A stretch of 64,000 nt of DNA, from positions 1-64,000 of the IMG/VR virus record IMGVR_UViG_3300035698_011578; one strand, given 5' to 3'. The translations under genes were made by a program, and so were the position numbers. Positions 1,322 through 57,467 of this stretch are shown piece by piece. The stretch is from a virus. The notes under the pieces are model-generated. The model searched no databases. It worked only from the letters and a program-made list of their open reading frames with translations, and was not told the DNA's origin. The stretch's first letter is position 1. Each line of letters opens with the position of its first letter.

Positions 1322-2833
1322 TTATCTTTCCCATACCCATCTTTTCAAACCACATCCCCATATTCTATAATTACCTAGGTTATGCATTATCTCAGATTCT
1401 GTACTTCCTATTACACCGGGTATTTTTAACAATTCTTGTTTTCGATAATTAAATCTATGTTTCCTCGTTTTATCAATAACCCACCAATAATTTGGTGGTG
1501 TAACACCATTTAAATTAAAATTAAGCCTCTCATAGAGAACACCATTGAAAAAGGATATGTCACTATAAGATACTATATAATCATATTCATATTTTCTTAT
1601 AAAATATTTAAATAATTTAGAAGCACCACCAATAACATTAGTTCCCAATTTAGAACAAAACCTAACTAATTCCATAACTTTCCTTTTTTTGGAAAAAGTC
1701 ATTAGACTAACAAGTTCATCATTGTAATATAACCCTATTTTATATTTGGTGCTTGAATATCCTTGTATGTGATTTTTGTTTAAAAAGTCTTTAACCAATT
1801 TAACATTAGATATTTCTTTAATTTCACACTTCCTAGCATAAATTTTATTTGAAATTGATAAGACTTTATTCAAAATCATAGACTCAACTATATCTCTTTT
1901 GTCTCTCCAATCATCTTCCCAAACATGTAATAAATTAATACCTAACTCACTACACAATTTCGTCTTATTCAAATGATAATTTTTATCTTTGTGTATTTCA
2001 GAATGCCAATAAACACCATTGAATTCAATGGCTAAATTTAATTCTGGTAAAAAAATATCTAATGATAATGGTGGTATGATAGAATAACTATTTTGTATAA
2101 CTTTAATATTTAATCCTGATATAAAATCACGTAATTCTATCTCACCACTAGAAGTAGTTGTTTCAACTGGGTTACAATTAGTGCAAATTATATTATTATT
2201 CCTTAACCTATCGTTTAGTGTTCCTGCAAATATTTCGAAATTTGATTCACATACATCATGGTATATTGTGAAATTTCTATCATTTGAATAATCCATAACT
2301 TTATAATCACTGTCTAATTTTTTGGATATTTTAGATGGTAAATTATGTTCTTTAAATTTAATGTCGGATATTATCTTTTTAACCTTTTCAGATTTAGAAG
2401 CATTATCAACTCCCCATTTTTCGTAACATGTGTTTCTATATTTTTCTTTATACTCTTCTGTTTTTGAGTAATGATCAACATTATATCTTTCTAATAAAGT
2501 ATTTCTAAGTTTATCTTTTATAGACTTCACTTTCATTGGATTATCAACACCATGATTTTTCATAAAATTATTTCTAAACTTAATTTTATTACATGAAGCA
2601 CAATAATAATTCTCTGTTAAACCATTAGTGTATGAATAGTATTCTCTGAATTGTGATTTAGTTTCTAACCCACACTCATCACATTTATAATTAACAATAA
2701 ATGTTGACCCTGGAGTTAGATGGGTTGTCTCAACCTTTACACGTTCTCTTACTGAAATATCATAACCTAATTTTCTATAATATTTAACATTCCTAGAATG
2801 TCCAATTATATAGGTGTATTTATCTAATATCAT
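1322..2833 (-). CDS. Free-standing homing endonuclease, Vsr/EDxHD-like
   Basis: The 503-residue protein has a Cys-pair zinc-binding region near residues 50-85, then repeated motifs of the type NHGVDNPMK / YNVDHYSKTEEYKEK typical of DNA-binding segments of phage homing endonucleases. A Vsr-like nuclease core follows with SLDIFLPELNLAIEFNGVYW and HVWEDDW. Such nucleases spread between phage genomes by cutting alleles that lack them. The C-terminal 180 residues resemble a further phage-type domain I cannot name. It lies between rhodanese and gp55 genes and interrupts no visible gene. Confidence 0.75.
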   Translation of the reverse strand: MILDKYTYIIGHSRNVKYYRKLGYDISVRERVKVETTHLTPGSTFIVNYKCDECGLETKSQFREYYSYTNGLTENYYCASCNKIKFRNNFMKNHGVDNPMKVKSIKDKLRNTLLERYNVDHYSKTEEYKEKYRNTCYEKWGVDNASKSEKVKKIISDIKFKEHNLPSKISKKLDSDYKVMDYSNDRNFTIYHDVCESNFEIFAGTLNDRLRNNNIICTNCNPVETTTSSGEIELRDFISGLNIKVIQNSYSIIPPLSLDIFLPELNLAIEFNGVYWHSEIHKDKNYHLNKTKLCSELGINLLHVWEDDWRDKRDIVESMILNKVLSISNKIYARKCEIKEISNVKLVKDFLNKNHIQGYSSTKYKIGLYYNDELVSLMTFSKKRKVMELVRFCSKLGTNVIGGASKLFKYFIRKYEYDYIVSYSDISFFNGVLYERLNFNLNGVTPPNYWWVIDKTRKHRFNYRKQELLKIPGVIGSTESEIMHNLGNYRIWGCGLKRWVWER

Positions 2834-12607: not shown

Positions 12608-15600
12608 TTATTTTAGAAACCAGTTTTTACTTATGTTACTCTCAGTTCTATAGCTAGATAAATGTTTTCTTCTAATATTTAATACTTGTGTGTAATCAAC
12701 CGCTTCAAAATAATCTGATTTTTTAAGACAATTTTCGATATATGATTTAATTTCACCACTCAACTCTTTATTCATATATTCTTCTACTAATTCTTTAAAT
12801 TCATTCTTTTTGAAAATAGAAGTAGCATTAACAATAGTCATAACACAATTATGTACAACAATACCATTGGCTATATAGCTATTATCATCCTCAACTTCTA
12901 AATTATATGTCAATCCTTTATAGTTATATTTAACATAACTATCGAAGGTAGATGATATTTCAAAATCAGATATTCTTTTCAAACTAGAAGATGTCGGGCG
13001 TACATCATAAACAGTTACCCAATACTGATCTTTACACTTAACCTCATATCTGTGTCTTTTGTTTTTATTTATTAAACTATGTTTACCAATTGATAAAGCA
13101 ATATCTCGCATAGATAGTGCTAATTGTAAACTAGTAGTACACCCAATATTACAACTGGATCTATTATTTTTACTCCTTTTGAACCATCCATCACCGAGTA
13201 ACCAATATTCCAATGTATAGCTTAAATCATTGGCTAGACTATGACCATAAGTTGGGAATATTTTTTCCTTTGTTTCTGTATCATAACATTGAATTAATAA
13301 CTCGAATAGTGTTTTGTTATAAACTATTATAACACACCCATTATCACTACGACTTTCTTCAAATAAATTCAAACCTAAAGAATTAAGATAACCCTTATAC
13401 CAACCTATTAATTCATTTTGATTTTTATTAAAAGCCATTGATATTCTATATGTTGTATTATTAGGTTTATAACAATTACCATCCGCTAAAAATAAACCTA
13501 AAAATTTAGCAAATTCTTCATCAAATATAATTTGTTTTATTTTAATATTACTTTCTGCAAAATTTTTATCTCTTTCAAATAATTTATTATAATTAATAAC
13601 TTTTTGTGTATTAATATTATATTTTTCTATTATATTCACACACCTTTGTTTTTTTGATATTTTACCTGGTAAAACCCATTTCCTTATTGATAAATTATTA
13701 TAATTACCGGTTTTATAAACTTTTCTTGAATAATTATTAGATGCAATATAAAGCGGGTGATTGTATGTTAAATTTAGATTAGGTTGTCCTTTAAACTTCA
13801 CATCAAACATATCACCATCAAATTCCTTAATACAAATATTAGTAATTTTTTTATAGTTACCTAGATGTGTTAAGACGAAATCACCTATTTTTAAATCTTT
13901 TATTTTCCTATAACCAAATTCGGTTTTTATAAATGTATCTGGTAATAAACAATCATCATGACCAGCATCAGCAGCATATCTAACATTCCCGGCATTAGTT
14001 ACATGCTTAACAAATGTTGTTATTTCATCTATAGTCTCATGATTTGTTATGTGGAAGTTTTTCTTTGACATTAAATCTTGATAATCTTTTACTAATAGGT
14101 TTTTATTCTCACCTACTTTCAAACCAATTTTTTCTTCTTTTGCATCAACTCTGTGTTTATATCTAACAAAAACAGAAGAACCATAATTATTCTTACCATC
14201 AAATACGTGAGGCATCTCTGATAATAAAGTACCACCATAATTATTTAACTCTAGAACTATTTTTACATTATCTGGGTTAAAATATTCAAATGCTAAAATA
14301 TATAATAGTTCTGCTATTTGTTTTAAAGATGCAATATTACACCTATATATACCCACCTGTTCTAAAGTAAAGAAATCGACTATTGAATCATAATTATCTT
14401 TTTGTTGTTCAATCGTCTCAATCGATTTGTGACCAAGTTTAAATATATTTATAATCGAATAATCCTGACCTAACCCTTCGGATAAATCAACAGATAATAT
14501 AATTTTATAATCTTTCCTTCTCATTGGTAAGAAGGAATCATTATCTATCCATTTTAAGTCTTCATATGAGAATTTAAGCTTTTCAAACTCTCTCAATTCT
14601 TCATATATGTAATTTTCTTTTTGTTTTAATAGTCCATTAATTATACCCTCATTCAATAGTGATTTACTAGAGTTGATGAATCTTAACCCATACTCTTGAT
14701 TAAATGCGTCTTCACCACCAATATCTTTGATAGCTTCATCTTTCCAAGTAGTTACTTCTGATATTGTTTGTAATGAAATCTCTTCACCTTTATCATTTAA
14801 AATATTTAACGATCTAATATCCTCGTTACTACACTTATCATTATTATCTACATGTATCACATACTTCTGTTTATCAACATCCCATTTCATTTCAATTTCG
14901 GTATCTGACTCCCATTTCTTTTTAACTTCATCTAATACATACTCTTTAGTGATACCATTCTCATATAATCTATGATCGTTCAATCTTAAATAGGTTACAA
15001 ATCTACCAGGAACTTCGTGCCAGTAAACTCGCATCGCTTTGTAGTTGTTTTTTGCAGGGTCACCATCTGGTCTTTCAGCACTCATTAAAAGTTTATGAAA
15101 CAAGTTCATACCATTTGGGGTTGATGTTATAATAATCTTTGAGTTCTTTATCGCAGATACTGTTGGGAAAACAGCTGTATAATAAGGTTCGATTATATTT
15201 GATGGTATGTGTGCAAATTCATCTAAGTATAATAAGTCAATAGTAAAACCAATCGCAGGAGTCTTAGTTCTTGCAGATGTTTTAATTCTACAACCATTTT
15301 CAAAGGTTAGCGATTTTTGATTCCATGTTTTTATACCAGGTTTTAAAAAGAATGGTAATAAACTATAAATAGATTTGATTTTATCAACAATCTCAATAGT
15401 AGTATCACGAATATTCGCAACAATCATAACATTCTTATCATTATTGAATAATAATGTGTGTAACATGAATATTGAAGCAGATATTGTATTATGTGATAAT
15501 ATACCATTTGTGTATAATCTGTGATTATCATGATTTATTGTCGTATCAAACATAGAGGATTTAAATCTACTCTCTAATACCAATCTAACTTTTTCTAATC

Positions 15601-15931
15601 CATTTCTTGTTTGTATCTTCTGACCAATCTTTAAATCTTTAACAAAAACCTCATTTAAGTTTTCATCGAATATAATATGATTATCCGCACATTCTAATTT
15701 AAAGTTTTCAGTGATTAAATGATAGTGTGTATAAGGTTGTGTTATGTGTAAATTTGATATTGTTTCATAGCCAGTGTCGGTTTCGGCTTTAATATTTAAT
15801 AATGATATAGTATTTAATATTTTCTTAGAGATATCATCTTCATCTAAACTTAGATTTTTATATTCATAATTTTCTATTTTTTGAATAAAATATCTTAATA
15901 TTAAAGATAATTTTCTTTTTAAAAATTGCAT
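12608..15931 (-). CDS. 17: Terminase large subunit, C-terminal half, with split-intein C part and an internal intein
   Basis: The 1107-residue product is, in order: intein C-fragment (1-148), ATPase plus most of the nuclease domain (149-660), a complete 368-residue intein (661-1028), and the last 79 residues of the nuclease. It lacks the Walker A P-loop up to Lys; the first extein residue, Thr149, completes it after trans-splicing with the gene at 18778. Visible motifs are Walker B (LLYLDEFAHIPS), coupling motif (TSTPNG) and nuclease motifs SVDLSEGLGQDY, VVLELNNYGG and AGHDD. After both splicing events the two genes would give about 709 residues, against 610 for T4 gp17. Confidence 0.92.
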   Translation of the reverse strand: MQFLKRKLSLILRYFIQKIENYEYKNLSLDEDDISKKILNTISLLNIKAETDTGYETISNLHITQPYTHYHLITENFKLECADNHIIFDENLNEVFVKDLKIGQKIQTRNGLEKVRLVLESRFKSSMFDTTINHDNHRLYTNGILSHNTISASIFMLHTLLFNNDKNVMIVANIRDTTIEIVDKIKSIYSLLPFFLKPGIKTWNQKSLTFENGCRIKTSARTKTPAIGFTIDLLYLDEFAHIPSNIIEPYYTAVFPTVSAIKNSKIIITSTPNGMNLFHKLLMSAERPDGDPAKNNYKAMRVYWHEVPGRFVTYLRLNDHRLYENGITKEYVLDEVKKKWESDTEIEMKWDVDKQKYVIHVDNNDKCSNEDIRSLNILNDKGEEISLQTISEVTTWKDEAIKDIGGEDAFNQEYGLRFINSSKSLLNEGIINGLLKQKENYIYEELREFEKLKFSYEDLKWIDNDSFLPMRRKDYKIILSVDLSEGLGQDYSIINIFKLGHKSIETIEQQKDNYDSIVDFFTLEQVGIYRCNIASLKQIAELLYILAFEYFNPDNVKIVLELNNYGGTLLSEMPHVFDGKNNYGSSVFVRYKHRVDAKEEKIGLKVGENKNLLVKDYQDLMSKKNFHITNHETIDEITTFVKHVTNAGNVRYAADAGHDDCLLPDTFIKTEFGYRKIKDLKIGDFVLTHLGNYKKITNICIKEFDGDMFDVKFKGQPNLNLTYNHPLYIASNNYSRKVYKTGNYNNLSIRKWVLPGKISKKQRCVNIIEKYNINTQKVINYNKLFERDKNFAESNIKIKQIIFDEEFAKFLGLFLADGNCYKPNNTTYRISMAFNKNQNELIGWYKGYLNSLGLNLFEESRSDNGCVIIVYNKTLFELLIQCYDTETKEKIFPTYGHSLANDLSYTLEYWLLGDGWFKRSKNNRSSCNIGCTTSLQLALSMRDIALSIGKHSLINKNKRHRYEVKCKDQYWVTVYDVRPTSSSLKRISDFEISSTFDSYVKYNYKGLTYNLEVEDDNSYIANGIVVHNCVMTIVNATSIFKKNEFKELVEEYMNKELSGEIKSYIENCLKKSDYFEAVDYTQVLNIRRKHLSSYRTESNISKNWFLK
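12848..13951 (-). other. Intein with LAGLIDADG homing endonuclease in the terminase nuclease motif
   Basis: The 368-residue insertion starts with Cys (CLLPDTFIKTEFGYRKIKDL, block A) and ends IANGIVVHN before Cys+1. It interrupts the metal-binding motif HDD-CVMT. Block B is LTYNHPLYI. Two LAGLIDADG-type motifs are present: LGLFLADG and LEYWLLGDG, so a double-motif homing endonuclease is probably active. Removal restores an uninterrupted terminase nuclease motif. Confidence 0.9.
15488..15931 (-). other. C-terminal fragment of a split intein (148 residues)
   Basis: It begins MQFLKRKLSLILRYF, contains block B (FKLECADNHIIFDENLNEVF) and ends NHRLYTNGILSHN, with Thr as the +1 residue. It lacks block A and the catalytic Cys1, which are supplied by the fragment at 18781-18942. 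The split therefore lies between blocks A and B, an atypical position known from the AceL-TerL class of terminase inteins. Confidence 0.9.
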
Positions 15932-16093
15932 TTTAAATGTTTTTATTTATATGTATATATAAAGATACAGTCTCTATTGCGATTTGTGTCGAATTATTTT
16001 TTATATTAAAATGTGAAATTTACTCAAAAATAGACATTTGAATTAAAATTGAATTAAAATTATAATATATAAATTATAAAAAGATAGGGCAAT

Positions 16094-16390
16094 ATGAACA
16101 TTTTAGAACTTAAATATAACAGTAAATCCTATACAAATCCAAGACAAATAATTAAGATACTTGAAAATGAAAAGTTTTACTGGTTAATCGACTCAGAACT
16201 TAGCAACGCTAAGATAGAGATAAAAAATAACACTATTATATGGCATGAAGGTATTTATTTAGCAGGTGATTGGGAATATGGAATTTTCAAAAATGGCGGG
16301 TTTTATGGTAATTGGGTGAATGGAATTTTTGAAAATGGTACTTTCCAGGGCAAATGGATTAGCGGTATTAATCTATCAAAAAATAATTAA
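16094..16390 (+). CDS. Small protein with MORN-like W-x-x-G-x-F repeats
   Basis: The 98-residue protein has a C-terminal repeat (GDWEYGIFKNGGFYGNW then VNGIFENGTFQGKW) resembling MORN-type beta-hairpin repeats, which often bind lipids or proteins. It is the first of six plus-strand genes lying between the two halves of the terminase gene. Role unknown. Confidence 0.55.
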   Translation: MNILELKYNSKSYTNPRQIIKILENEKFYWLIDSELSNAKIEIKNNTIIWHEGIYLAGDWEYGIFKNGGFYGNWVNGIFENGTFQGKWISGINLSKNN

Positions 16391-16394
16391 CACG

Positions 16395-16859
16395 ATGAGA
16401 AAAAAGAAAACTTTATCAAAAGAAGAAACATTCTTACTAGAATTAGAATTAGTATATAGTGAAAATAAAGTTTTAGTTGTCGAGAATCAAGAAGGTTATA
16501 TAAGCTTTGAAACAATAAAAGAATCCACAATGGATTTAACAGAAGGTGTTTCAATACTTATAAACAAACTAGACAACGAAGATTCAATTTGGAATACAGA
16601 AATTAAAAAATTATATAGAATATCACCTGAGAAGACACTATATTGGTTAAGTGGTGGTGATGCAGAATGGGGGAAGATGACAAATTATAAGAAACCATGG
16701 TGTGAATGTATGAATATTTTTAAAGATGAGTTCGGAGATTCAATAATAGAAATTGCTGAAAATGCTTCCAAATTAAGTGATATTAGAAATTATTTTAAGA
16801 AATATTTAAATCTACCTGTATTATATGACTTTGCTTTAAGTAAAAACTTAATAAAATAG
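16395..16859 (+). CDS. Hypothetical protein between the terminase halves
   Basis: The start MRKKKTLSKEE at 16395 is chosen because the upstream ATG at 16320 lies inside the previous gene. The 154-residue protein has no recognised family; it includes LYRISPEKTLYWLSGGDAEW. It follows the MORN-like gene by 4 bases. Confidence 0.55.
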   Translation: MRKKKTLSKEETFLLELELVYSENKVLVVENQEGYISFETIKESTMDLTEGVSILINKLDNEDSIWNTEIKKLYRISPEKTLYWLSGGDAEWGKMTNYKKPWCECMNIFKDEFGDSIIEIAENASKLSDIRNYFKKYLNLPVLYDFALSKNLIK

Positions 16860-16883
16860 AATATATTTTTAATATATACTGAT

Positions 16884-17129
16884 ATGGAAGATGAATACAA
16901 AGAATATAGATTAGTCTGTAAAAACCCTTGGTGTAAAGCACAATTTATTTGTACTAACGAAGATGTTATTGAAAAAGACGGTAAGAAGATATACCCTAAA
17001 GAATGTAAAAAATGTAAGAGTTTTGATACAGAATTAAGTGGTGGAGTAACCTGGGAAGAAAGACATTATGAGGGTGACCCTTGGAAAGGCGCACACCAAA
17101 TAAGCTATAAAGTAACTAATTATAATTAA
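16884..17129 (+). CDS. Small zinc-ribbon-like protein
   Basis: The 81-residue protein has two Cys pairs, CKNPWC (C-x4-C) and CKKCKSF (C-x2-C), about 23 residues apart, consistent with a zinc ribbon. It follows an AATATATA motif at 16871 by a few bases. Target unknown. Confidence 0.55.
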   Translation: MEDEYKEYRLVCKNPWCKAQFICTNEDVIEKDGKKIYPKECKKCKSFDTELSGGVTWEERHYEGDPWKGAHQISYKVTNYN

Positions 17130-17132
17130 ATT

Positions 17133-17996
17133 ATGAATGCACATTTTTTTGACATAGACGTATTGATGAAGATAGATAATAGTATTTGGATAATTTCTAA
17201 GTACAAACCATCTATACCTATTATTAAAATATCGAAATCTGAATTTAATTTGATTAAAAAAGGTATTTATAAGAAATTTAACTCACCTTTAGAATTAGAT
17301 AACCGTAAGTACTGGTTACCTGAAAATCTATTAAATCAATTAAAGATAAAGTGTAAGAAACACAAATGTGATATTACTGACCTATTGTTTTCTATGCAAG
17401 AGTTTGTTAATAAGGATGTTATTGATAATTTAGATTATGAAATTCAGACACAAAACTTCCAACACTTAAAAAACAGAACTGATGATATTTATGTTATATG
17501 TTCTAGAAAGAGTAAAAATAGCTATGAGTCTATAATTAAGAAACTTGAAAAGGAATTAGGTAAATTAGGTATAGAGATTAAGAAATTCTATTATTTATCC
17601 GAAACATTTTATAATAGAGATAAAGATAACATCTCATATAAGAAAGTTAAACTATTACTTCAACATCTAATGGGTTTGAAAACAGAATATGATAAATTCA
17701 CAGATGTAGAAATAACCAAATATGATAAGATATATTATTATGACGATGAACCAAATGCACTTACATTAGCATTGGACTCTAATATTATGTTTTCTAATCT
17801 TCTGAAAAATAGCGACGATGTTGTTAAAAAGCAAATAAAAGAAGTTATAAATTCAAATGATAATATCATAACAGTTAAGCAAGTAACACATAATAAATTT
17901 AATATTTTCAATGAAAAGGATGTTGTTATAAAATATAGCCACATAACCAAGACATTTGAAGGGTTTAAAAATAACAAAAATAATACAATTATATGA
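17133..17996 (+). CDS. Putative HAD-like phage protein
   Basis: The 287-residue protein starts MNAHFFDIDVLMK, with a DxD motif where HAD enzymes carry the nucleophile, and has YYYDDEPNAL near residue 205, similar to the acidic HAD motif IV. A Cys-Ser segment (VICSRKSKNSYE) lies at the expected motif II region. Enzyme activity is not certain. It overlaps the next gene by 4 bases (ATGA), indicating coupled translation. Confidence 0.5.
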   Translation: MNAHFFDIDVLMKIDNSIWIISKYKPSIPIIKISKSEFNLIKKGIYKKFNSPLELDNRKYWLPENLLNQLKIKCKKHKCDITDLLFSMQEFVNKDVIDNLDYEIQTQNFQHLKNRTDDIYVICSRKSKNSYESIIKKLEKELGKLGIEIKKFYYLSETFYNRDKDNISYKKVKLLLQHLMGLKTEYDKFTDVEITKYDKIYYYDDEPNALTLALDSNIMFSNLLKNSDDVVKKQIKEVINSNDNIITVKQVTHNKFNIFNEKDVVIKYSHITKTFEGFKNNKNNTII

Positions 17997-18244
17997 AACA
18001 CGTAAAAAAAGTAAATGAATTTTTTGGTGGAGGAGAAAGAGCCGCACAGGATTTGATAAATAGAAAACACCAATCTTTATTAGAAACATTGAGTACTTGG
18101 GAGAAACCATATACAGAGGAACAAATGATTAAGATAGAGAGAATCTCACATTATATAATGGAGGGCGTCGATTTAGATTCTGTCTATAGTGATTATAAAT
18201 TGAGTAAAAAGATATCTAAAAAGACTGGAAGACAAAATTGGTAA
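17993..18244 (+). CDS. Small protein with partial tag (MKHVKKVNEFF)
   Basis: The 83-residue protein begins MKHVKKVNEFFGGGERA, a weak match to the shared tag. It is basic and helical, with no recognised domain. It is coupled to the preceding HAD-like gene by a 4-base overlap. Confidence 0.5.
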   Translation: MKHVKKVNEFFGGGERAAQDLINRKHQSLLETLSTWEKPYTEEQMIKIERISHYIMEGVDLDSVYSDYKLSKKISKKTGRQNW

Positions 18245-18248
18245 CAAT

Positions 18249-18791
18249 ATGAAATATATTACTTTATACGAAAACTACAACCCTAGCATTGTATCTGAGA
18301 TAAGAAACTGTTTCTTACCTGTTACTGATTTTTCTGATATTGTTATTAAAATGCCAAAAGATAGTAAACACCTTGATAAATGGGGTCGTGGTCAAAGACC
18401 AAAAGTTAACCCAAATTATTATAACATCAGAATATCATTTAATAATACGGATGATGATGTAACAACTCGCAAAATAACAACAGATGGGGTTGAACATGAT
18501 TCATTTCATTATAGGAAGATAAAAAATTCTACTGAATTACACGAAGAAATAATGGAAGCAATTGAAAAATGTATTAATTATATTGGGTTAGAATTAGATA
18601 GAATTGACTTTAGATGGGTTGCTATTGGTGAATTTGATGAGAGATTAGGACATATACCACAGGGGATTTTGACTAAAATTTTCAGAGGACAACCACACCA
18701 TAAACATGATAATATTGATAAATTTGATAGTTTTTATGAAGAAAGGTGTGAGTTAGTTAGATTTATCGAACTAAGTTTTAATATTCAATAA
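18249..18791 (+). CDS. Hypothetical protein with partial tag (MKYITLYENY)
   Basis: The 180-residue protein begins MKYITLYENYNPS, resembling the tag without the Phe-Glu end. It includes KWGRGQRPKVNPNYYNIRI and a His-rich PHHKHDN segment. No family recognised. Its last 14 bases overlap the end of the terminase N-half gene on the other strand. Confidence 0.5.
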   Translation: MKYITLYENYNPSIVSEIRNCFLPVTDFSDIVIKMPKDSKHLDKWGRGQRPKVNPNYYNIRISFNNTDDDVTTRKITTDGVEHDSFHYRKIKNSTELHEEIMEAIEKCINYIGLELDRIDFRWVAIGEFDERLGHIPQGILTKIFRGQPHHKHDNIDKFDSFYEERCELVRFIELSFNIQ

Positions 18792-19296
18792 TAAATAACC
18801 AATCGTATAATTTAATCTTAATCTTTTCTAATAAAGTTAGCTTTCTTTCTTTTGCTAACATATTATAATATAGCTTACCGACTCTAATATCATATTGATT
18901 ACCATCTTTTTCAATTGAAAAAATTGTATTGAATGAGAAGCATTTACCAACCTGTCTAGAAGCCATTAAGATATTAAACCTATTCTGAATAAAATTATCC
19001 ATCATAATTCCTTGATAATCACGTAACTCTATATTATCGATAGAACCATCTTCTGTTTTTACTTGGCAATATTTTTCAGTAAAGTAATGAACATCTAATG
19101 CACATTTGATATATTCTTGTTGTTCTTCTTCTGTCATTTTAAAAATCACACCTGATCTTCTGTTACCTACCTCACTCTTACGCCATGGGTTTTGATACCT
19201 TTTCAATACAACACCATCATTTATCATATCAGTGTGTTCATTTACTAATTTAGTTGTGAAGACCATTTGTCTTTCATTTTGCTTTTTCTTTGCCAT
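18778..19296 (-). CDS. 17: Terminase large subunit, N-terminal half, fused to split-intein N part
   Basis: The start MAKKKQNERQ at 19296 is preferred over an ATG at 19395, which would overlap the small terminase gene. Residues 1-118 are the terminase N-terminus, ending ILMASRQVGK, which is the Walker A motif up to its Lys. Residues 119-172 are the intein N-fragment starting with Cys. Trans-splicing with the product of 12608-15931 rebuilds RQVGK-T. Without it no complete ATP-binding site exists. The two halves are 2.85 kb apart, with six genes on the opposite strand between them. Confidence 0.9.
   Translation of the reverse strand: MAKKKQNERQMVFTTKLVNEHTDMINDGVVLKRYQNPWRKSEVGNRRSGVIFKMTEEEQQEYIKCALDVHYFTEKYCQVKTEDGSIDNIELRDYQGIMMDNFIQNRFNILMASRQVGKCFSFNTIFSIEKDGNQYDIRVGKLYYNMLAKERKLTLLEKIKIKLYDWLFIIEY
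18781..18942 (-). other. N-terminal fragment of the split intein (54 residues)
   Basis: It begins CFSFNTIFSIEKDGNQYDI, a block A with the nucleophilic Cys1, and ends with an amphipathic segment (LLEKIKIKLYDWLFIIEY). The partner fragment also begins with a hydrophobic-basic helix-like segment. These two ends may associate to bring the halves together; that is inference. Confidence 0.9.
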
Positions 19297-19338: not shown

Positions 19339-19956
19339 ATGGCTAAAATAGACAAAGAACGAAAGAAGATACAAGATGAGTTTGACCAAATACAATCAGA
19401 GAGTGGTGTGTTTGATATATCAAATCACTTAGCTAAGATAGAAGATTTACCTGATTTGGGTGAAATTGAAATATATGATTATGATTCAGATATGACCGTT
19501 GTTAGAAATAAATCAATGGAAGTATTAGAAACCTTAGTAGATTTATTTTTAGGTGATGTTCCACAACTGAAAGAGCACCCATATATTAAGACTAAGATGG
19601 AAGAAGATGCTATGGTATATGCAGAGGGTTTATTTTTAGCTAAAATGACAAGAAAGAATTTTCTTAACCAACTTAGACAAGTAGATAATGGAGATAATTC
19701 TGCTAGAATGCATGAGGTTGTTAACCAAACGATTGGACAAATAAGAGAAAACTCTAAATTTCTTTCCGGTCAACGATCAGAATTAGAGAAGTTTTATAAG
19801 AATCTCAGAAATGATATGGGTTATAATGAAATAGAACCGGAGAGGTCAATAGAAGAAATTGACGATGAAGAAGGATCAGTAACCGATAATAGAAAATTAA
19901 ACGATTTAATTAAAGATGCTGTCATGAAAAGTGATGATAAAAATAAAAAAGGATAA
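19339..19956 (+). CDS. 16: Terminase small subunit, T4 gp16-like
   Basis: The 205-residue protein resembles T4 gp16: IEDLPDLGEIEIYDYD near the start and a central coiled segment (HEVVNQTIGQIRENSKFL, then RSELEKFYKNLRNDMG) with an acidic disordered C-terminus. gp16 forms rings that recognise DNA and stimulate the large subunit. It is divergent from the terminase N-half gene, with an AATATATA motif at 19313 in the shared promoter region. Confidence 0.7.
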   Translation: MAKIDKERKKIQDEFDQIQSESGVFDISNHLAKIEDLPDLGEIEIYDYDSDMTVVRNKSMEVLETLVDLFLGDVPQLKEHPYIKTKMEEDAMVYAEGLFLAKMTRKNFLNQLRQVDNGDNSARMHEVVNQTIGQIRENSKFLSGQRSELEKFYKNLRNDMGYNEIEPERSIEEIDDEEGSVTDNRKLNDLIKDAVMKSDDKNKKG

Positions 19957-23452: not shown

Positions 23453-26400
23453 ATGGCAAATATTCAAATTGGAAAATACAAAAGACCAGGTATCTTCATA
23501 GAAGAATTTGATCAATCAGTTATTTCCTCACCAATAGTTGAAGGTATAACTAACCTTGTAATAGGAGTTTCAAAAAAAGGACCGTTCAATACACCTATTA
23601 AATTGACAACTACTAATGACCTTGAAGCGATTTTTGGTCAATTAGATAGAAATTTAGAAAGAAAGGGATCTTTCTTCCACAGAACAATTTCTAAGATGTT
23701 AGAAACATCTCCTATCTATGCAATGAACTTATTATTAACCGATGATACTTTAGATGCTATTGAGTATAAATCAATATCTTCATCATCAGGTTTTGACAAT
23801 GATGTTAAAAGAGAAGGTCCATATAGAAGATTTTTTGATACTACTGGGTTTTGGAAAAGAGATACTGAATCATTCATTAATCTTACTAAAGAAAACACTG
23901 GGTATGCAGAAAGAGCATTTAGTTTAACAAATCTAAGTGACAAACCTGTTACTACATTTGTTTTCAAATCTGCACTATCTGGGTTTGATAGAACTTTACT
24001 AGAATGGTATGGTACAATCGATAAGATGCCGCCATTTGTAAATGCAAATGATTACGCTTCCGATTATATGGTTGATGTTGTAGTTATTTCTGGTGATTGG
24101 TCTAATTATCAATCATTAGCAGTTGATCCAAGATGGAGTCAATATTTTAACGCATCTGGTTTAATAAAAGAAGAAGTTAGTAATTTTGCTAATGATAGAA
24201 ATATCAATCTTCTTACCTATTATGAAGGATTATCTTTGATTCCATATTTTAGAGACTTAAATGGTACAAATGTATTTATTGAGACTAGTTTAAATAGAGA
24301 TACAGATAAAACAGGTTTATTCTGCGCATTCAACAATGACTTAGTAGAAGTAGACTATTATAATGGTATGTTAGATCTATTGGGTAATACAATCGTAGGT
24401 GAGAATGAAACTAATATCGATTTCATTTCTTATAAAGAATTAATATCAGAACAAATCGAAATTACTGCCACACCTCTTGATTTACCGGGTAATGTAACTG
24501 CAATATTAGGTGGTAGTGCATCGTCTTATATCGACCAATCAGCTCACGCATTTGGTTCTATCCCATTAGAAGAAGGTATAGTAACAAATGGTGATAATAG
24601 AACAGCATGGTTTGGAGAAGGCTCAGTTTATGATGTTACAAGAACATCATACACAGGAACATCTGGTACTATGTCTATCGTTTATACTGCTGGTGCTAAC
24701 GCATTTGCTGTAATAGGAGACGAGAAAATAGATATAACCGCAGAAGTAGTTACATTAGAAATATTTGCAACTGATTATCCTATATTATCAACAACTGCTT
24801 CTTATTTTGCAACCGCAGTTCTTAATGATTCTGGTGAAATTGTTCTTAATACAACAATCACTGAAGATACTTACCCAACTGTTACTGCAAGTGATATTGT
24901 TTTGGGTTATGTTGAATTTGATATAGTTAGTAATGTGATTGCTTCTTCAACATACACACATTTAACTATTAATGATAGTGGGTTCATAGGACTTGTTAAT
25001 GATACTGATTATGAAGTATCAGATGAAGGTAGTGGTAAAATTAAAATTGAATTTAGTGAAACTGCAACTATACAAGATGTTAATAACTATGAACAATATA
25101 GAAAATTCAAAATGTTTAATAGATTAGTTAATTTATTAGATAGCACTAATATTGATAGAATGGCTATGAGTTTAGGTGGTAGTGATGGTTCAGACCGTGA
25201 TAAATATAGATTAGAAGATTCTAGTGTATTAAATATTGTTACTGCAACTTATGAAAATAAATCATTCGAATTACAAACTACATTAGAATCTGGTGATTTA
25301 ACTTATATAGTTGATAATGGATACTTAGTAATTTATACAATTGATGATGAAACGATATTGGGTTCAGAAGGTATGATTACAAAGAATACTGTCGCTACTG
25401 CAACACAAGGTGTAGTCGCAGAAAATTCTCTACTCTATAGTAGATTCTATGATGGTATGATTAATACAGGTGATTTCTTTTATGATAATAGATTATATAC
25501 AGACTCAACTGGTGCTACTAATGATTTATTAGGAGACACAGTAACTGTTGATTTTATCGACGGTGAGGATGCTACTGGATCACCAACTTCTTCATATGCT
25601 GGATATGATTATATCATATTTGGTAGTGATGAAGATTTTGCTAGTGAAGTTGGCTTATTATCATTAGATAAAATACTAATACCAGATTCTGTATTAAATA
25701 CAGGCACATTTACAATACAAAATGATGTAGCTACTGGGTTAGCACCTGCGGCATTAGCAGTTGCACTTGGATTTACTGGTAGTGATTATTACGCATATCA
25801 AGTTACCGAAGAAGTAGAAACAGAGACTCTATTCGGAGTTAATCTTGTGTATGATTATAATGCTAAATATTATCTTAAAATGTATTTAACTGGAACTGAT
25901 TTAGACATCGAATTTGTAGATGTATCAGTGAATGTTGAGGCTAATAATACTATATTTATACAGTCTAGAAAATCTAACTTAAAACAAAGTATTGAAATTG
26001 AAGTCCCAACAGGATATACAAGAGTACATAACAAAATTTTAGTTGATGCTACTAGATATACTGAATTAGGACCTGGTAATTTCCTTGAAGCATATGTTGA
26101 CACTGACGAATTAGAAATTGGTGAAGTTCCAAGAAAATTAACTAGAATTTTAAGCAAGAAACGTTATGCAGGTGATGCTACATTATCTGAGATAACTTGT
26201 GATTCTAGAATTAAAGTTTATAATTTTGGAGGTGATTTACAAACACTAAGATATGTTAGTATTGATAACTATGTATCTACATATAAAGCAATAACTCTTA
26301 AAGGATTTAAAGTTAGAACAAATTCATTACCAGATGGTAGCGAAGATAGACAAGATAGTATCTTAAATCTTGTTGCTAAAGGAACACCAATGTTCAAAGC

Positions 26401-27328
26401 TTTAACTAATAAAGAAGCTATCGATTTCAGATATTTAATTGACTCATTTGGGTTAGGATTAACTGAGAGATCTAAGCAACAGTTAGTAGATATTTGTGGT
26501 ACTAGATTAGACCTATTTGGTTTCATCAATATGCCATCATTAAGAGACTTTAAGAACTCAAGCTCACCTAGTTTCGTTGATTCAGAGGGTATATTACAAA
26601 CAGAATTCATCGCAGAAGGTGGTGACCCTGAGAGTAATCCAGCATTCCTTTATTCATTCGCAGACGGTGCCGGTGTTACAACTGTTGGATACTTTACTCC
26701 TTACTTAACTGTAAATGACAACGGTAGACCATTAGATATGCCACCTGCATCATATGTAGCAACTACATACATGAGAAAGCATATTTCAAATGTAACTTCG
26801 ATTACACCTTGGACTATTGCAGCTGGTGTTACAAATGGTAAAATAACAAACATTAGTGGACTTGAAATGGACTTCACATATGAAGATATTGAGAATCTAA
26901 ATCAAGCACAAATGAATCCTATTGTATATAAGAGAAATAGAGGTTATATCATTGAGACTGAGAATACTGCACAAACGCTTTATAAATCAGCATTATCATA
27001 CATTCATGTTAGAGAAGTTCTTGTTGAGTTAGAAAGAGAACTATCTAGAATGTTATTAGATTACCAATGGAAATATAATACTCCTGATATTAGAGCAGAG
27101 ATTAAACTAAGAGCAGACGTTATCTGTGAGACTTATGTAAGTAAGAATGGTTTATATAACTACTTTAACAAGATGGATGATGAGAATAATACATCAGAGA
27201 TAATCGACAACCAAATGGGTGTTTTAGACACTTATGTTGAGCCAATCAAAGGTATGGGAATCATCGTAAACAATATTACAATTCTAAGAACTGGTGCAAT
27301 CAGTGCTGGTGGATTTATAAACTCTTAA
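23453..27328 (+). CDS. 18: Tail sheath protein, gp18-like, unusually large
   Basis: The 1291-residue protein has the N-terminal sheath signature (YKRPGIFIEEFDQSV, then LVIGVSKKGPFNTP). The conserved C-terminal sheath domain follows from about 960 (SLRDFKN, PPASYVATTYMRKHISN, FNKMDDENNT, IVNNITILRTGAISAGGF). The T4 protein has 659 residues; about 600 extra residues, Thr/Asp/Gly-rich and beta-like, sit in the middle (about 330-870) and probably decorate the sheath surface. It is the main contractile component of the tail. Confidence 0.92.
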   Translation: MANIQIGKYKRPGIFIEEFDQSVISSPIVEGITNLVIGVSKKGPFNTPIKLTTTNDLEAIFGQLDRNLERKGSFFHRTISKMLETSPIYAMNLLLTDDTLDAIEYKSISSSSGFDNDVKREGPYRRFFDTTGFWKRDTESFINLTKENTGYAERAFSLTNLSDKPVTTFVFKSALSGFDRTLLEWYGTIDKMPPFVNANDYASDYMVDVVVISGDWSNYQSLAVDPRWSQYFNASGLIKEEVSNFANDRNINLLTYYEGLSLIPYFRDLNGTNVFIETSLNRDTDKTGLFCAFNNDLVEVDYYNGMLDLLGNTIVGENETNIDFISYKELISEQIEITATPLDLPGNVTAILGGSASSYIDQSAHAFGSIPLEEGIVTNGDNRTAWFGEGSVYDVTRTSYTGTSGTMSIVYTAGANAFAVIGDEKIDITAEVVTLEIFATDYPILSTTASYFATAVLNDSGEIVLNTTITEDTYPTVTASDIVLGYVEFDIVSNVIASSTYTHLTINDSGFIGLVNDTDYEVSDEGSGKIKIEFSETATIQDVNNYEQYRKFKMFNRLVNLLDSTNIDRMAMSLGGSDGSDRDKYRLEDSSVLNIVTATYENKSFELQTTLESGDLTYIVDNGYLVIYTIDDETILGSEGMITKNTVATATQGVVAENSLLYSRFYDGMINTGDFFYDNRLYTDSTGATNDLLGDTVTVDFIDGEDATGSPTSSYAGYDYIIFGSDEDFASEVGLLSLDKILIPDSVLNTGTFTIQNDVATGLAPAALAVALGFTGSDYYAYQVTEEVETETLFGVNLVYDYNAKYYLKMYLTGTDLDIEFVDVSVNVEANNTIFIQSRKSNLKQSIEIEVPTGYTRVHNKILVDATRYTELGPGNFLEAYVDTDELEIGEVPRKLTRILSKKRYAGDATLSEITCDSRIKVYNFGGDLQTLRYVSIDNYVSTYKAITLKGFKVRTNSLPDGSEDRQDSILNLVAKGTPMFKALTNKEAIDFRYLIDSFGLGLTERSKQQLVDICGTRLDLFGFINMPSLRDFKNSSSPSFVDSEGILQTEFIAEGGDPESNPAFLYSFADGAGVTTVGYFTPYLTVNDNGRPLDMPPASYVATTYMRKHISNVTSITPWTIAAGVTNGKITNISGLEMDFTYEDIENLNQAQMNPIVYKRNRGYIIETENTAQTLYKSALSYIHVREVLVELERELSRMLLDYQWKYNTPDIRAEIKLRADVICETYVSKNGLYNYFNKMDDENNTSEIIDNQMGVLDTYVEPIKGMGIIVNNITILRTGAISAGGFINS

Positions 27329-54944: not shown

Positions 54945-57467
54945 ATGATTACTAGCGAAATAAATAGTGACAAGAAACAAACAGACTTTAAAAATGAATT
55001 TAGTAAAGAAATTTATGAACAAACATACAGATTTGGGAAAGAAAATATAAATAACACACTTTACAGAATTGCAAACGAATTGGCTTCAGTCGAAACCGAT
55101 AAAAAATCTTGGACAGAAAACTTTTTAGATCTTTTAACAGATTTTAAATTTGTACCAGGTGGTAGAATTATATCAAATGCCGGTGTTCCATTAAGAGGAA
55201 CTAGTATGATAAATTGCTTCGTCGATGGTTTTAAAGGAGGAGACCAAGACTCAATGGAAAGCATAATGGACACATTAAGGAGACAAGCGATGATACTTAA
55301 ATCTGAAGGTGGTTATGGCTTTTGTGCAGATGTTATGAGACCAAGAGGTAGTTTCATTAGAGGTATCGGAAATGAATCACCAGGATCAGTTAAAATGCTT
55401 GATATGTGGGACACACAATCCGCAGTTATTACTGAAGGAAGTGGTAAGAAGAGTGATAGAAAAGATGGTAAAGTTAAAATTCGTAAAGGTGCACAAATGG
55501 TGACTATGAGTTGCTGGCATCCCGATATTGAAGAATTTATAACTGCTAAACAAACACCAGGTAGATTGACAAAATTTAACATGTCTATTCTAGCATCTGA
55601 TGAATTGATGAAGTGTGTTGAAAATAACTCACCATGGAATCTCGAATTCCCTGATTATGACACATTCCCAAATGAATATAAAGAAGAGTGGAATGGTAAT
55701 ATTGCCGAGTGGAAAGAAAAAGGTTATACTACAATAGTCTATAAAACATTCGAAGATGCTAATGAACTATGGGATGTTATTATGATGTCTACATATAATA
55801 GAAATGAACCAGGTGTTTTATTCATAGATACAATCAACAAGCTAAACAATCTTAAATATTGTGAGTTCATCAACGCTACAAACCCTTGTGGGGAACAGGT
55901 ATTACCAATTGGTGGTGTTTGCTTATTAGGTTCTATTAACTTAACACAATTTATTGATTTTAAAAATCAAAACTGGGATTATACTAAATTGAAAAAATAT
56001 ATTCCAAGTATTGTTAGATTGATGGATAATGTTAATGATAAAACTTATGTACCACTTGATTATCAAAGAGAAAATCTAGTTGATAAACGTAGAATTGGTT
56101 TAGGTATGATGGGATATGGTTCTGCATTGATGATGTTAAAACTAAAATATGGTTCAAAAGAAGCACTTAAATTAACAGAAGAGTTAATGAGTTTTATCGC
56201 AAATAATGCTTATTCTGCTTCAGCAATGTTAGCAAAAGAAAAAGGGAAATTTAGATTATATGAGGAAAGCGAATACTTAAATTCTAACTTTATCAAACAA
56301 GCACTGACAAAGGAGACGATAGAATTAATTAAAGAACATGGTATTAGAAATTCACATCTATTATCTATACAACCTACTGGAAATAGTTCAATATTTGCAA
56401 ACAATGTATCAGGTGGACTAGAACCATTATTTATGCCAGAATATATAAGAACTTCTATTATGCCTTATTCACCAGAAGGATTAGAAATTCCTAAGAATAT
56501 TGACTGGGATAATAAATCTTATGTTTCAATGACTAACTGGGAGTGGATAAGAGAAGGTGATGAACCATTACTCGCAACTACATTTGATAATTATAGATGG
56601 AAGTTTGATAAGAATAGAGGATTATTAAGAGAAACACTAGTTGAGGATTATGCAGTTTCTTTCTTAAAAGAAAAAGATGAGTGGGATGCTGGTGCTGATT
56701 GGGCTGCAACTACTACAACTTTAAATATTAATGAACACATTGATACAATGGCAGTTATTGCTAAATATATTGACTCTGCGATTTCTAAAACAGTAAATTT
56801 ACCAAATGAATATTCTTACGAAGATTTTAAAGACCTTTATAAGAAATTACACGATACTAAAACTATTAAAGGTGGTACAACTTATAGAGCAGGTACAATG
56901 ACTTCTGTATTATCCGGAAAAGATAAAGAAGAAAAGAGTGAAAACACACTTGCTAAAACAGAAGCACCTAGAAGACCAAAGGTTTTAAACTGTGACATTC
57001 ATCACGTTACTGTACAAGGTGATAAGTGGACTGTTATTATTGGATTATTTGGTGATAATAAAGATCCTTATGAAGTATTTGCTTTCAAAAAGAAGAGCAT
57101 TAGTATTTCTGCCTCAATAAAAGAAGGACAATTAACGAAAGTTAAGAAAGGAAGATATGATTTAGATTTAAATGGTGTTGTTATTGAAAATATCAAAGAA
57201 CACTTTACATCTGATGAAGAAGAAGCTCTAACTAGAATGATATCTACTGCATTACGACATGGTGCTAATATCAATTTTATATATGACCAGTTACAAAAAT
57301 CAGAGGGTAATATTGTATCATTCTCAAAAGCGGTATCAAGAACCTTGAAGAAATATTTAAGTGATGATAAAACAGAGGATTGTCCTAGTTGTAAAGCTGA
57401 TAAAGCACTAGTATTACAAGAAGGGTGTTTTGTCTGTAAACATTGTGGATACAGTAAATGTTCTTAA
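54945..57467 (+). CDS. nrdJ: Class II (B12-dependent) ribonucleotide reductase
   Basis: The 840-residue enzyme has the N-terminal Cys of GTSMINCFVDG, the active-site loop FINATNPCGEQVLPIGG with the catalytic Asn-Cys-Glu, VCLLGSINL, and SIQPTGNSS. The C-terminus holds a zinc ribbon (CPSCKAD and CKHCGYSKC) found in class II enzymes. It reduces ribonucleotides using adenosylcobalamin and needs no separate radical subunit or oxygen. With thymidine kinase it supplies DNA precursors. No intein or intron is visible. Confidence 0.93.
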   Translation: MITSEINSDKKQTDFKNEFSKEIYEQTYRFGKENINNTLYRIANELASVETDKKSWTENFLDLLTDFKFVPGGRIISNAGVPLRGTSMINCFVDGFKGGDQDSMESIMDTLRRQAMILKSEGGYGFCADVMRPRGSFIRGIGNESPGSVKMLDMWDTQSAVITEGSGKKSDRKDGKVKIRKGAQMVTMSCWHPDIEEFITAKQTPGRLTKFNMSILASDELMKCVENNSPWNLEFPDYDTFPNEYKEEWNGNIAEWKEKGYTTIVYKTFEDANELWDVIMMSTYNRNEPGVLFIDTINKLNNLKYCEFINATNPCGEQVLPIGGVCLLGSINLTQFIDFKNQNWDYTKLKKYIPSIVRLMDNVNDKTYVPLDYQRENLVDKRRIGLGMMGYGSALMMLKLKYGSKEALKLTEELMSFIANNAYSASAMLAKEKGKFRLYEESEYLNSNFIKQALTKETIELIKEHGIRNSHLLSIQPTGNSSIFANNVSGGLEPLFMPEYIRTSIMPYSPEGLEIPKNIDWDNKSYVSMTNWEWIREGDEPLLATTFDNYRWKFDKNRGLLRETLVEDYAVSFLKEKDEWDAGADWAATTTTLNINEHIDTMAVIAKYIDSAISKTVNLPNEYSYEDFKDLYKKLHDTKTIKGGTTYRAGTMTSVLSGKDKEEKSENTLAKTEAPRRPKVLNCDIHHVTVQGDKWTVIIGLFGDNKDPYEVFAFKKKSISISASIKEGQLTKVKKGRYDLDLNGVVIENIKEHFTSDEEEALTRMISTALRHGANINFIYDQLQKSEGNIVSFSKAVSRTLKKYLSDDKTEDCPSCKADKALVLQEGCFVCKHCGYSKCS

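Follow-up and report, generated by a model that had tools for sequence, protein, structure and literature searches.

The locus described here raises the question of how a phage makes the motor that packages its DNA when the gene for the motor protein is broken inside the ATP-binding site. The locus lies in a 64,000-base stretch (the window), bases 1-64000 of the 95,476-base IMG/VR virus record IMGVR_UViG_3300035698_011578. In it terL, the gene for the large terminase subunit (TerL), is present as two minus-strand open reading frames (ORFs) with 2,846 bp and opposite-strand genes between them. We consider it very probable that the break is a naturally split class 1 intein in the P-loop (Walker A motif), that it derives from a homing cassette whose endonuclease was lost and whose halves were dispersed, and that TerL is made by protein trans-splicing. 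This reading is based on how the locus is built, on homology, on catalytic residues that are conserved, on cassettes that are mobile in relatives, and on a change in gene order.

The N-terminal half is an ORF of 172 amino acids (aa) at 18778-19296(-), whose C-terminal part includes ...NILMASRQVGK/CFSFNTIF... (slashes mark splice junctions). The TerL N-extein (118 aa, 18943-19296) matches PHROG terminase, is 83% identical to the N terminus of an intact TerL (locus L005; relatives are given L numbers), and ends in the first part of Walker A, SRQVGK. The remaining 54 aa (18781-18942) are the N-terminal intein fragment (IntN), with Cys1, block A, and a C-terminal helical extension, followed by a TAA stop codon at 18778-18780. 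The C-terminal half, also on the minus strand, is an ORF of 1107 aa (12608-15931) that opens with the C-terminal intein fragment (IntC; 148 aa, 15488-15931). IntC has an N-terminal helix, block B (CADNH), block F, and the SHN end with a +1 Thr, closing ...NGILSHN/TISASIF. Behind it are 512 aa of extein with the remaining ATPase domain and most of the nuclease domain (13952-15487), a second intein, and a C-terminal extein of 79 aa plus the stop codon (12608-12847). Both halves match terminase families in PHROG, and the C half matches Pfam Terminase_6N with an E value of 5e-13. The ORF coordinates, the fragment lengths of 54 and 148 aa, the distance of 2,846 bp, and the RQVGK/T junction are exactly as given in an earlier note on this DNA, and the break does fall between intein blocks A and B, with block A on IntN and block B on IntC.

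Conceptual splicing gave a TerL of 709 aa in which SRQVGKT and GHDDCVM are restored and which aligns nearly without gaps to intact relatives. Intact, intein-free homologues, which the earlier note had suggested looking for, occur among close relatives; the spliced protein is 58 to 73% identical to six of them (710 to 725 aa), and the Walker A column is restored. The length and identity of the restored TerL, its Walker A column, and the same split in dozens of relatives argue that the split did not arise by chance.

The second intein is contiguous (12848-13951, minus strand; 368 aa, Cys1...HN/C) and has LAGLIDADG endonuclease motifs. It sits in GHDD/CVM of the TerL nuclease, right after the Asp pair of the nuclease motif; together with the split intein in Walker A, it leaves both TerL active sites interrupted. 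The earlier note overlooked this intein, as it did the block of opposite-strand genes that separates the halves and the element's membership in a mobile family. The GHDD/C intein is also present in L002 but absent from the near-identical L057, which indicates that it, too, was recently mobile. The C halves of L092-L095, L131, and L132 are ~1,120 aa long, the length expected from both inteins together.

The residues of a class 1 intein, Cys1...SHN/T, are present in the window, and Cys1, the block B His, the block F residues, and the terminal Asn are all retained. The same split intein is present at the identical codon boundary in about 70 contigs of IMG/VR and in two huge phages of GenBank; the split was seen in L004, L006, L007, L011, L016/L017, L027, L035, L058, L059, and L063. 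Among the TerL relatives of the window are phages with the largest genomes known: LR745206 (634 kb), LR756502 (642 kb), and LR756501 (735 kb). Their sizes are those of curated genomes in PMC7162821, where the hosts are predicted to be Bacteroidetes and a 735-kb genome is among those called manually curated and complete. Searching with IntC gave 80 loci, several of them near-identical phages, and every one was in TerL; because the search patterns were derived from TerL inteins, other host genes could be missed. Both halves lay within the fetched stretch on one strand at 67 of the 80 loci, the intein was contiguous at 2 (L114 and L117), and 11, mostly at contig ends, had no N half in the fetched stretch. 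A search of GenBank phages with IntN alone gave no match. All 82 loci read by script have Thr at +1, and in 77 of them the intein ends in SHN; IntN ranges from 49 to 72 aa. An alignment of 14 IntC sequences has 32 invariant columns, among them the His of block B and the Asn at the end. Recoding of the stop codon at the N halves was ruled out, since most end in TAA (64/75, the window's included). From these features trans-splicing of the two window halves is strongly implied, and splicing is likely to be obligatory.

In most relatives a free-standing endonuclease gene lies between the halves. It is usually a same-strand gene of ~320 to 370 aa; those tested have a DUF559/MTES_1575 nuclease domain, some with a MucR-like zinc finger, while in L035, L059, L068, and L088 the gene is of the DUF7487 type and on the opposite strand. 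Remnants of the endonuclease gene are kept in L076, L082, and L146. In L090, L105, L107, L109-L111, L113, and L122 the halves are adjacent (gap of -5 to 190 bp) and the endonuclease gene is gone.

This cassette, IntN-endonuclease gene-IntC, moves as one unit in relatives. The TerL proteins of L011 and L024 are nearly identical, but in L011 an insert of 1,628 bp sits precisely where the Lys codon (GGT AAG/) of the P-loop meets the Thr codon ACG. A second filled and empty pair is formed by L063 and L064, again with a precise P-loop insert of ~1.63 kb. In L087 and L098 the cassettes share 99 to 100% nucleotide identity over most of their length, versus ~64 to 75% for the TerL flanks; in L091 and L138 the relation is reversed, with flanks ~99% identical and cassettes 46 to 76% identical over most of their length. 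The pattern in these last two pairs is that expected of homing with co-conversion and of allele replacement. Precise empty sites and horizontal spread are thus both found in the family (L011/L024, L063/L064, and L087/L098). On a tree of TerL exteins the split state is scattered and at least 9 changes are required; two GenBank Campylobacter rows of this tree are distant fragments labelled intact although phage F379 is split, which leaves the inner clade unaffected.

Other inteins also occur in these TerL genes. The TerL ORF of L031 (8654-11860) has a different, class 3-like intein (Ala1, LAGLIDADG, THN/T end) at the same GK/T site, which marks the P-loop as an intein hot spot. In two isolated phages TerL is interrupted more than once: that of Salicola phage SCTP-2 (L050) by an IntC at Walker A and by the N-fragment of another intein after LLY/C, and that of Campylobacter phage CP21 (L047) by a contiguous intein at Walker A and, farther downstream, by another split.

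The window differs from most relatives in what lies between the halves. A common gene order is found in about 30 relatives: 12012 gene, terL, 19339 gene, 17133, 16884, 16320, 16094 (these on the terL strand), and 20529, with genes named by window position. In the window the four-gene block (16094, 16320, 16884, and 17133; 16094-17996, plus strand) is inverted and sits between the terL halves, whereas in the relatives it lies beyond the 19339 gene. That gene (19339-19956, plus strand) is a conserved synteny anchor beside the terL N half in nearly all relatives. Two extra small genes (17993 and 18249; 17993-18791, plus strand) have no clear counterpart in relatives; the second of them runs opposite to terL and shares 14 bases with the end of IntN. 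Exactly the window order would result from two nested inversions, one of them breaking within the split, and also from an inverted transposition. Such a rearrangement would be tolerated because the halves of a split intein no longer need to be adjacent.

No endonuclease remnant was found between the window halves by tblastn, and the only related nuclease in the window is a DUF7487 gene at 1322-2833(-). This gene is ~40% identical to the opposite-strand between-half gene of L035 and L059. Dispersal is also seen elsewhere: the halves in LR756501 (735 kb) are separated by 12.4 kb that hold ~15 genes, on both strands, and in the 152-kb contig G003 (locus L119) the N half (1797-2297, plus strand) and the C half (24510-26753, minus strand) are 22 kb apart on opposite strands. 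The window copy is probably a dispersed and immobile end state in the decay of a widespread mobile split-intein cassette.

AlphaFold predicted a Hint domain for the contiguous relative L117 (mean predicted local distance difference test [pLDDT] score, 91.7), with a 32-residue helix (residues 37-68), and the split point of other family members maps inside this modelled helix. The best PDB matches of the model were VidaL (6vgv) and then Cat (6dsl), with gp41-1 also among the best. Modelled alone, the window IntC (pLDDT, 86.6) is predicted to keep its N-terminal helix (residues 2-23) and the Hint strands, so that a Hint fold is predicted for both. The end of IntN resembles the start of IntC, but a duplicated linker was rejected: in L114 and L117, which are contiguous, the two segments directly follow each other, and these form one long helix in the L117 model, which argues that the split is simply inside a helix. 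Amphipathic docking helices were also rejected, as hydrophobic moments were mostly no better than those of shuffled sequences. That the fragments dock through the split helix is a guess.

Split inteins in phage TerL are already known. The two closest in kind are AceL-TerL (25 + 104 aa, Cys1/Cys+1) and GOS-TerL (37 + 115 aa, Ser1/Cys+1) (PMC11766414); natural atypical split inteins have an IntN of 15 to 37 aa (PMC13014065). Both, like the window intein, are naturally split, are in phage TerL, and break near the N terminus between blocks A and B. The earlier note was right to place the window intein, broken near its N terminus within Walker A, among the kin of the atypically split TerL inteins. 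A plain assignment to the AceL-TerL type proper does not hold: the window has a longer IntN (54 aa) and IntC (148 aa), Thr+1, and a split inside an extra helix, and thus has neither the short IntN nor the Cys+1 of that type. Because Cys+1 differs from Thr+1, the insertion point of AceL-TerL and GOS-TerL cannot be the same GK/T. The window IntC matches Cat, an engineered TerL-type consensus, by sequence (E = 1.3e-6), and Cat takes second place by fold for the L117 model. VidaL is the closest solved relative both by sequence (E = 3.5e-9) and by fold; it, too, has an atypical N-terminal split, but its IntN is 16 aa and it is split directly after the second strand (PMC13014065).

In layout the relatives, with an IntN half, an endonuclease gene, and an IntC half, are exactly of the fractured-gene type. 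Fractured genes with split inteins and free-standing endonucleases were reportedly described by Dassa et al. in 2009. The window departs from that type in lacking the endonuclease and in having unrelated genes between its halves. A split TerL intein with a T5orf172-like endonuclease gene inside is present in Campylobacter phage F379. Ackermannviridae and Campylobacter phages (Maynard, VP-1, and CP220) have a homologous intein in the same stretch of TerL, which reads GK/C...HN/T in Maynard and VP-1, is annotated in Salmonella phage Maynard, and was found in Vibrio and Campylobacter phages; in contrast to the window intein, these are contiguous, in one gene, cis-splicing, and without the long helix insertion. 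Among essential genes, the cyanobacterial DnaE split intein likewise joins dispersed halves by trans-splicing, but in a cellular gene, at a canonical split site, and through one ancient event rather than several recent ones. In jumbo phage MIJ3 it is the DNA polymerase B gene that is divided by a split intein, and an endonuclease gene separates its two parts; this differs from our case in the host gene and in the endonuclease still being present (PMC6892783). We found no papers on split TerL inteins in huge phages, although most of the subscription literature was outside our search; a paper on huge phages does not mention inteins (PMC7162821).

The sequence of events that we infer is as follows. 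The element would have entered as a homing cassette of IntN, free-standing endonuclease gene, and IntC, which is still mobile in relatives. In the window lineage the endonuclease gene would then have been lost, and two nested inversions or an inverted transposition would have put the neighbouring block between the halves. The result would be a class 1 intein (Cys1, terminal His-Asn, Thr+1) between the Walker A Lys and Thr of TerL. The two precursors would be translated separately, IntN and IntC would associate into one Hint domain, and trans-splicing would join SRQVGK to T and so yield the only ATP-binding TerL, whereas the GHDD/C contiguous intein would splice in cis.

Several points weigh against this account. 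No independent contig has the window gene order or the junction near 15,970-16,010. Block B reads CADNH and not the canonical TxxH; the His is invariant in the alignment, Ala is in the place of Thr, and VidaL likewise reads CAFNH. In two distant relatives IntC ends differently (NLN in LR756501 and SSQ in LR756500), so that splicing there may be slower or altered. The ratios of nonsynonymous to synonymous substitution rates (dN/dS) in the window, ~0.11 to 0.17 for IntN, 0.22 to 0.37 for IntC, and 0.07 to 0.11 for the exteins, count in favour of splicing but are rough, since dS is near saturation. Finally, no other TerL was found in the window's record, but as this is a 95-kb fragment, the negative result covers only that fragment.

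An intact terminase gene elsewhere in the genome, which the earlier note named as a result that would refute it, was also sought in the complete 735-kb genome. That genome has only the split TerL and a TerL-like paralog, a 394-aa ATPase whose Walker A reads SRQMGIT, without Lys. A hidden intact TerL was rejected: there is none in the 95 kb, and the paralogs in related genomes lack the Walker A lysine. Paralogs of the TerL ATPase domain are found at L052 (LR756501 699896-701026; SRQMGIT), L007:5333-6145 (SRQMGIS), and L053:1346-2293 (SRQSGMT); these Lys-less proteins of three huge phages are possibly a noncatalytic partner in the packaging motor.

Of the other explanations for the locus, the least improbable, although we think it very unlikely and the timing of packaging is unsupported, is that splicing is a regulatory switch, with slow assembly of TerL timing DNA packaging; the earlier note suggested that dependence on splicing could time packaging. 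With both catalytic sites interrupted, TerL should have no activity until it is spliced. Yet intact, intein-free TerL occurs in close relatives, and near-identical phages differ by gain, loss, and replacement of the element, as fits a parasite that is tolerated; the presence and absence of a homing element in such phages speak against the proposal. Nor was any regulatory feature found: the T4-like late promoter TATAAATA upstream of the C half is not enriched, with 34 occurrences in the window versus 26.9 expected.

We give even less credence to the idea that the halves act as two noncovalent subunits and that the intein pieces are decaying, nonsplicing relics. There are phage ribonucleotide reductase genes in pieces that work without splicing, at least as cited in PMC10448857, and the intein C termini of L006 and L007 are degenerate. 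Here, however, it is the P-loop that is broken, between Lys and Thr, and 54 + 148 foreign residues are attached; the splice-junction residues and 32 IntC columns are invariant over 14 aligned homologues; and purifying selection acts on the intein even in lineages that lack the endonuclease (L076/L090 and the window). It is just as hard to believe in an assembly artefact or a pseudogene, with a misjoined gene order and a functional intact terL elsewhere, for while the fragmentary record and the unreplicated junction noted above would allow it, the split is present in dozens of independent assemblies, including the curated complete 735-kb genome, the genes at the breakpoints are all intact, a simple misjoin does not yield two nested inversions, and the 735-kb phage has no other Lys-containing TerL.

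Two observations lie outside the argument. The large subunit of ribonucleotide reductase of the 735-kb phage (L006:25419-28901) appears to contain an intein; in the window's own ribonucleotide reductase gene (54945-57467) the family search found no intein. An N-terminal motif like MKYIKxFExFxE, which we take to be reminiscent of the T4 capsid-targeting sequence, is found on the otherwise unrelated window ORFs 891, 9111, 18249, 22855, 31822(-), 33042(-), 58917, 61803(-), and 63425, and also in L007, L016, and G003.

What is new here is a dispersed, endonuclease-free descendant of a mobile cassette. One clade contains, side by side, inteins that are contiguous, split with an endonuclease gene, split with that gene degrading, split with adjacent halves and no endonuclease, and dispersed. 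A mobile split-intein cassette of huge phages has probably fractured the P-loop of the packaging motor repeatedly, and where the endonuclease is lost the halves would drift, change strand, and become permanently dispersed, with the window as the immobile end state. Most of what is known about how essential genes come to be split, and remain so, is from single frozen cases, whereas this one family offers a graded series in which homing, loss of the endonuclease, and separation of the halves have all left direct signs. The family is also a source of many new split inteins that have Thr+1 and are broken within a helix, and split inteins are tools of protein chemistry. For the huge phages themselves, automatic annotation may list TerL, the usual marker for phage trees, as broken or absent where splicing makes a functional protein.

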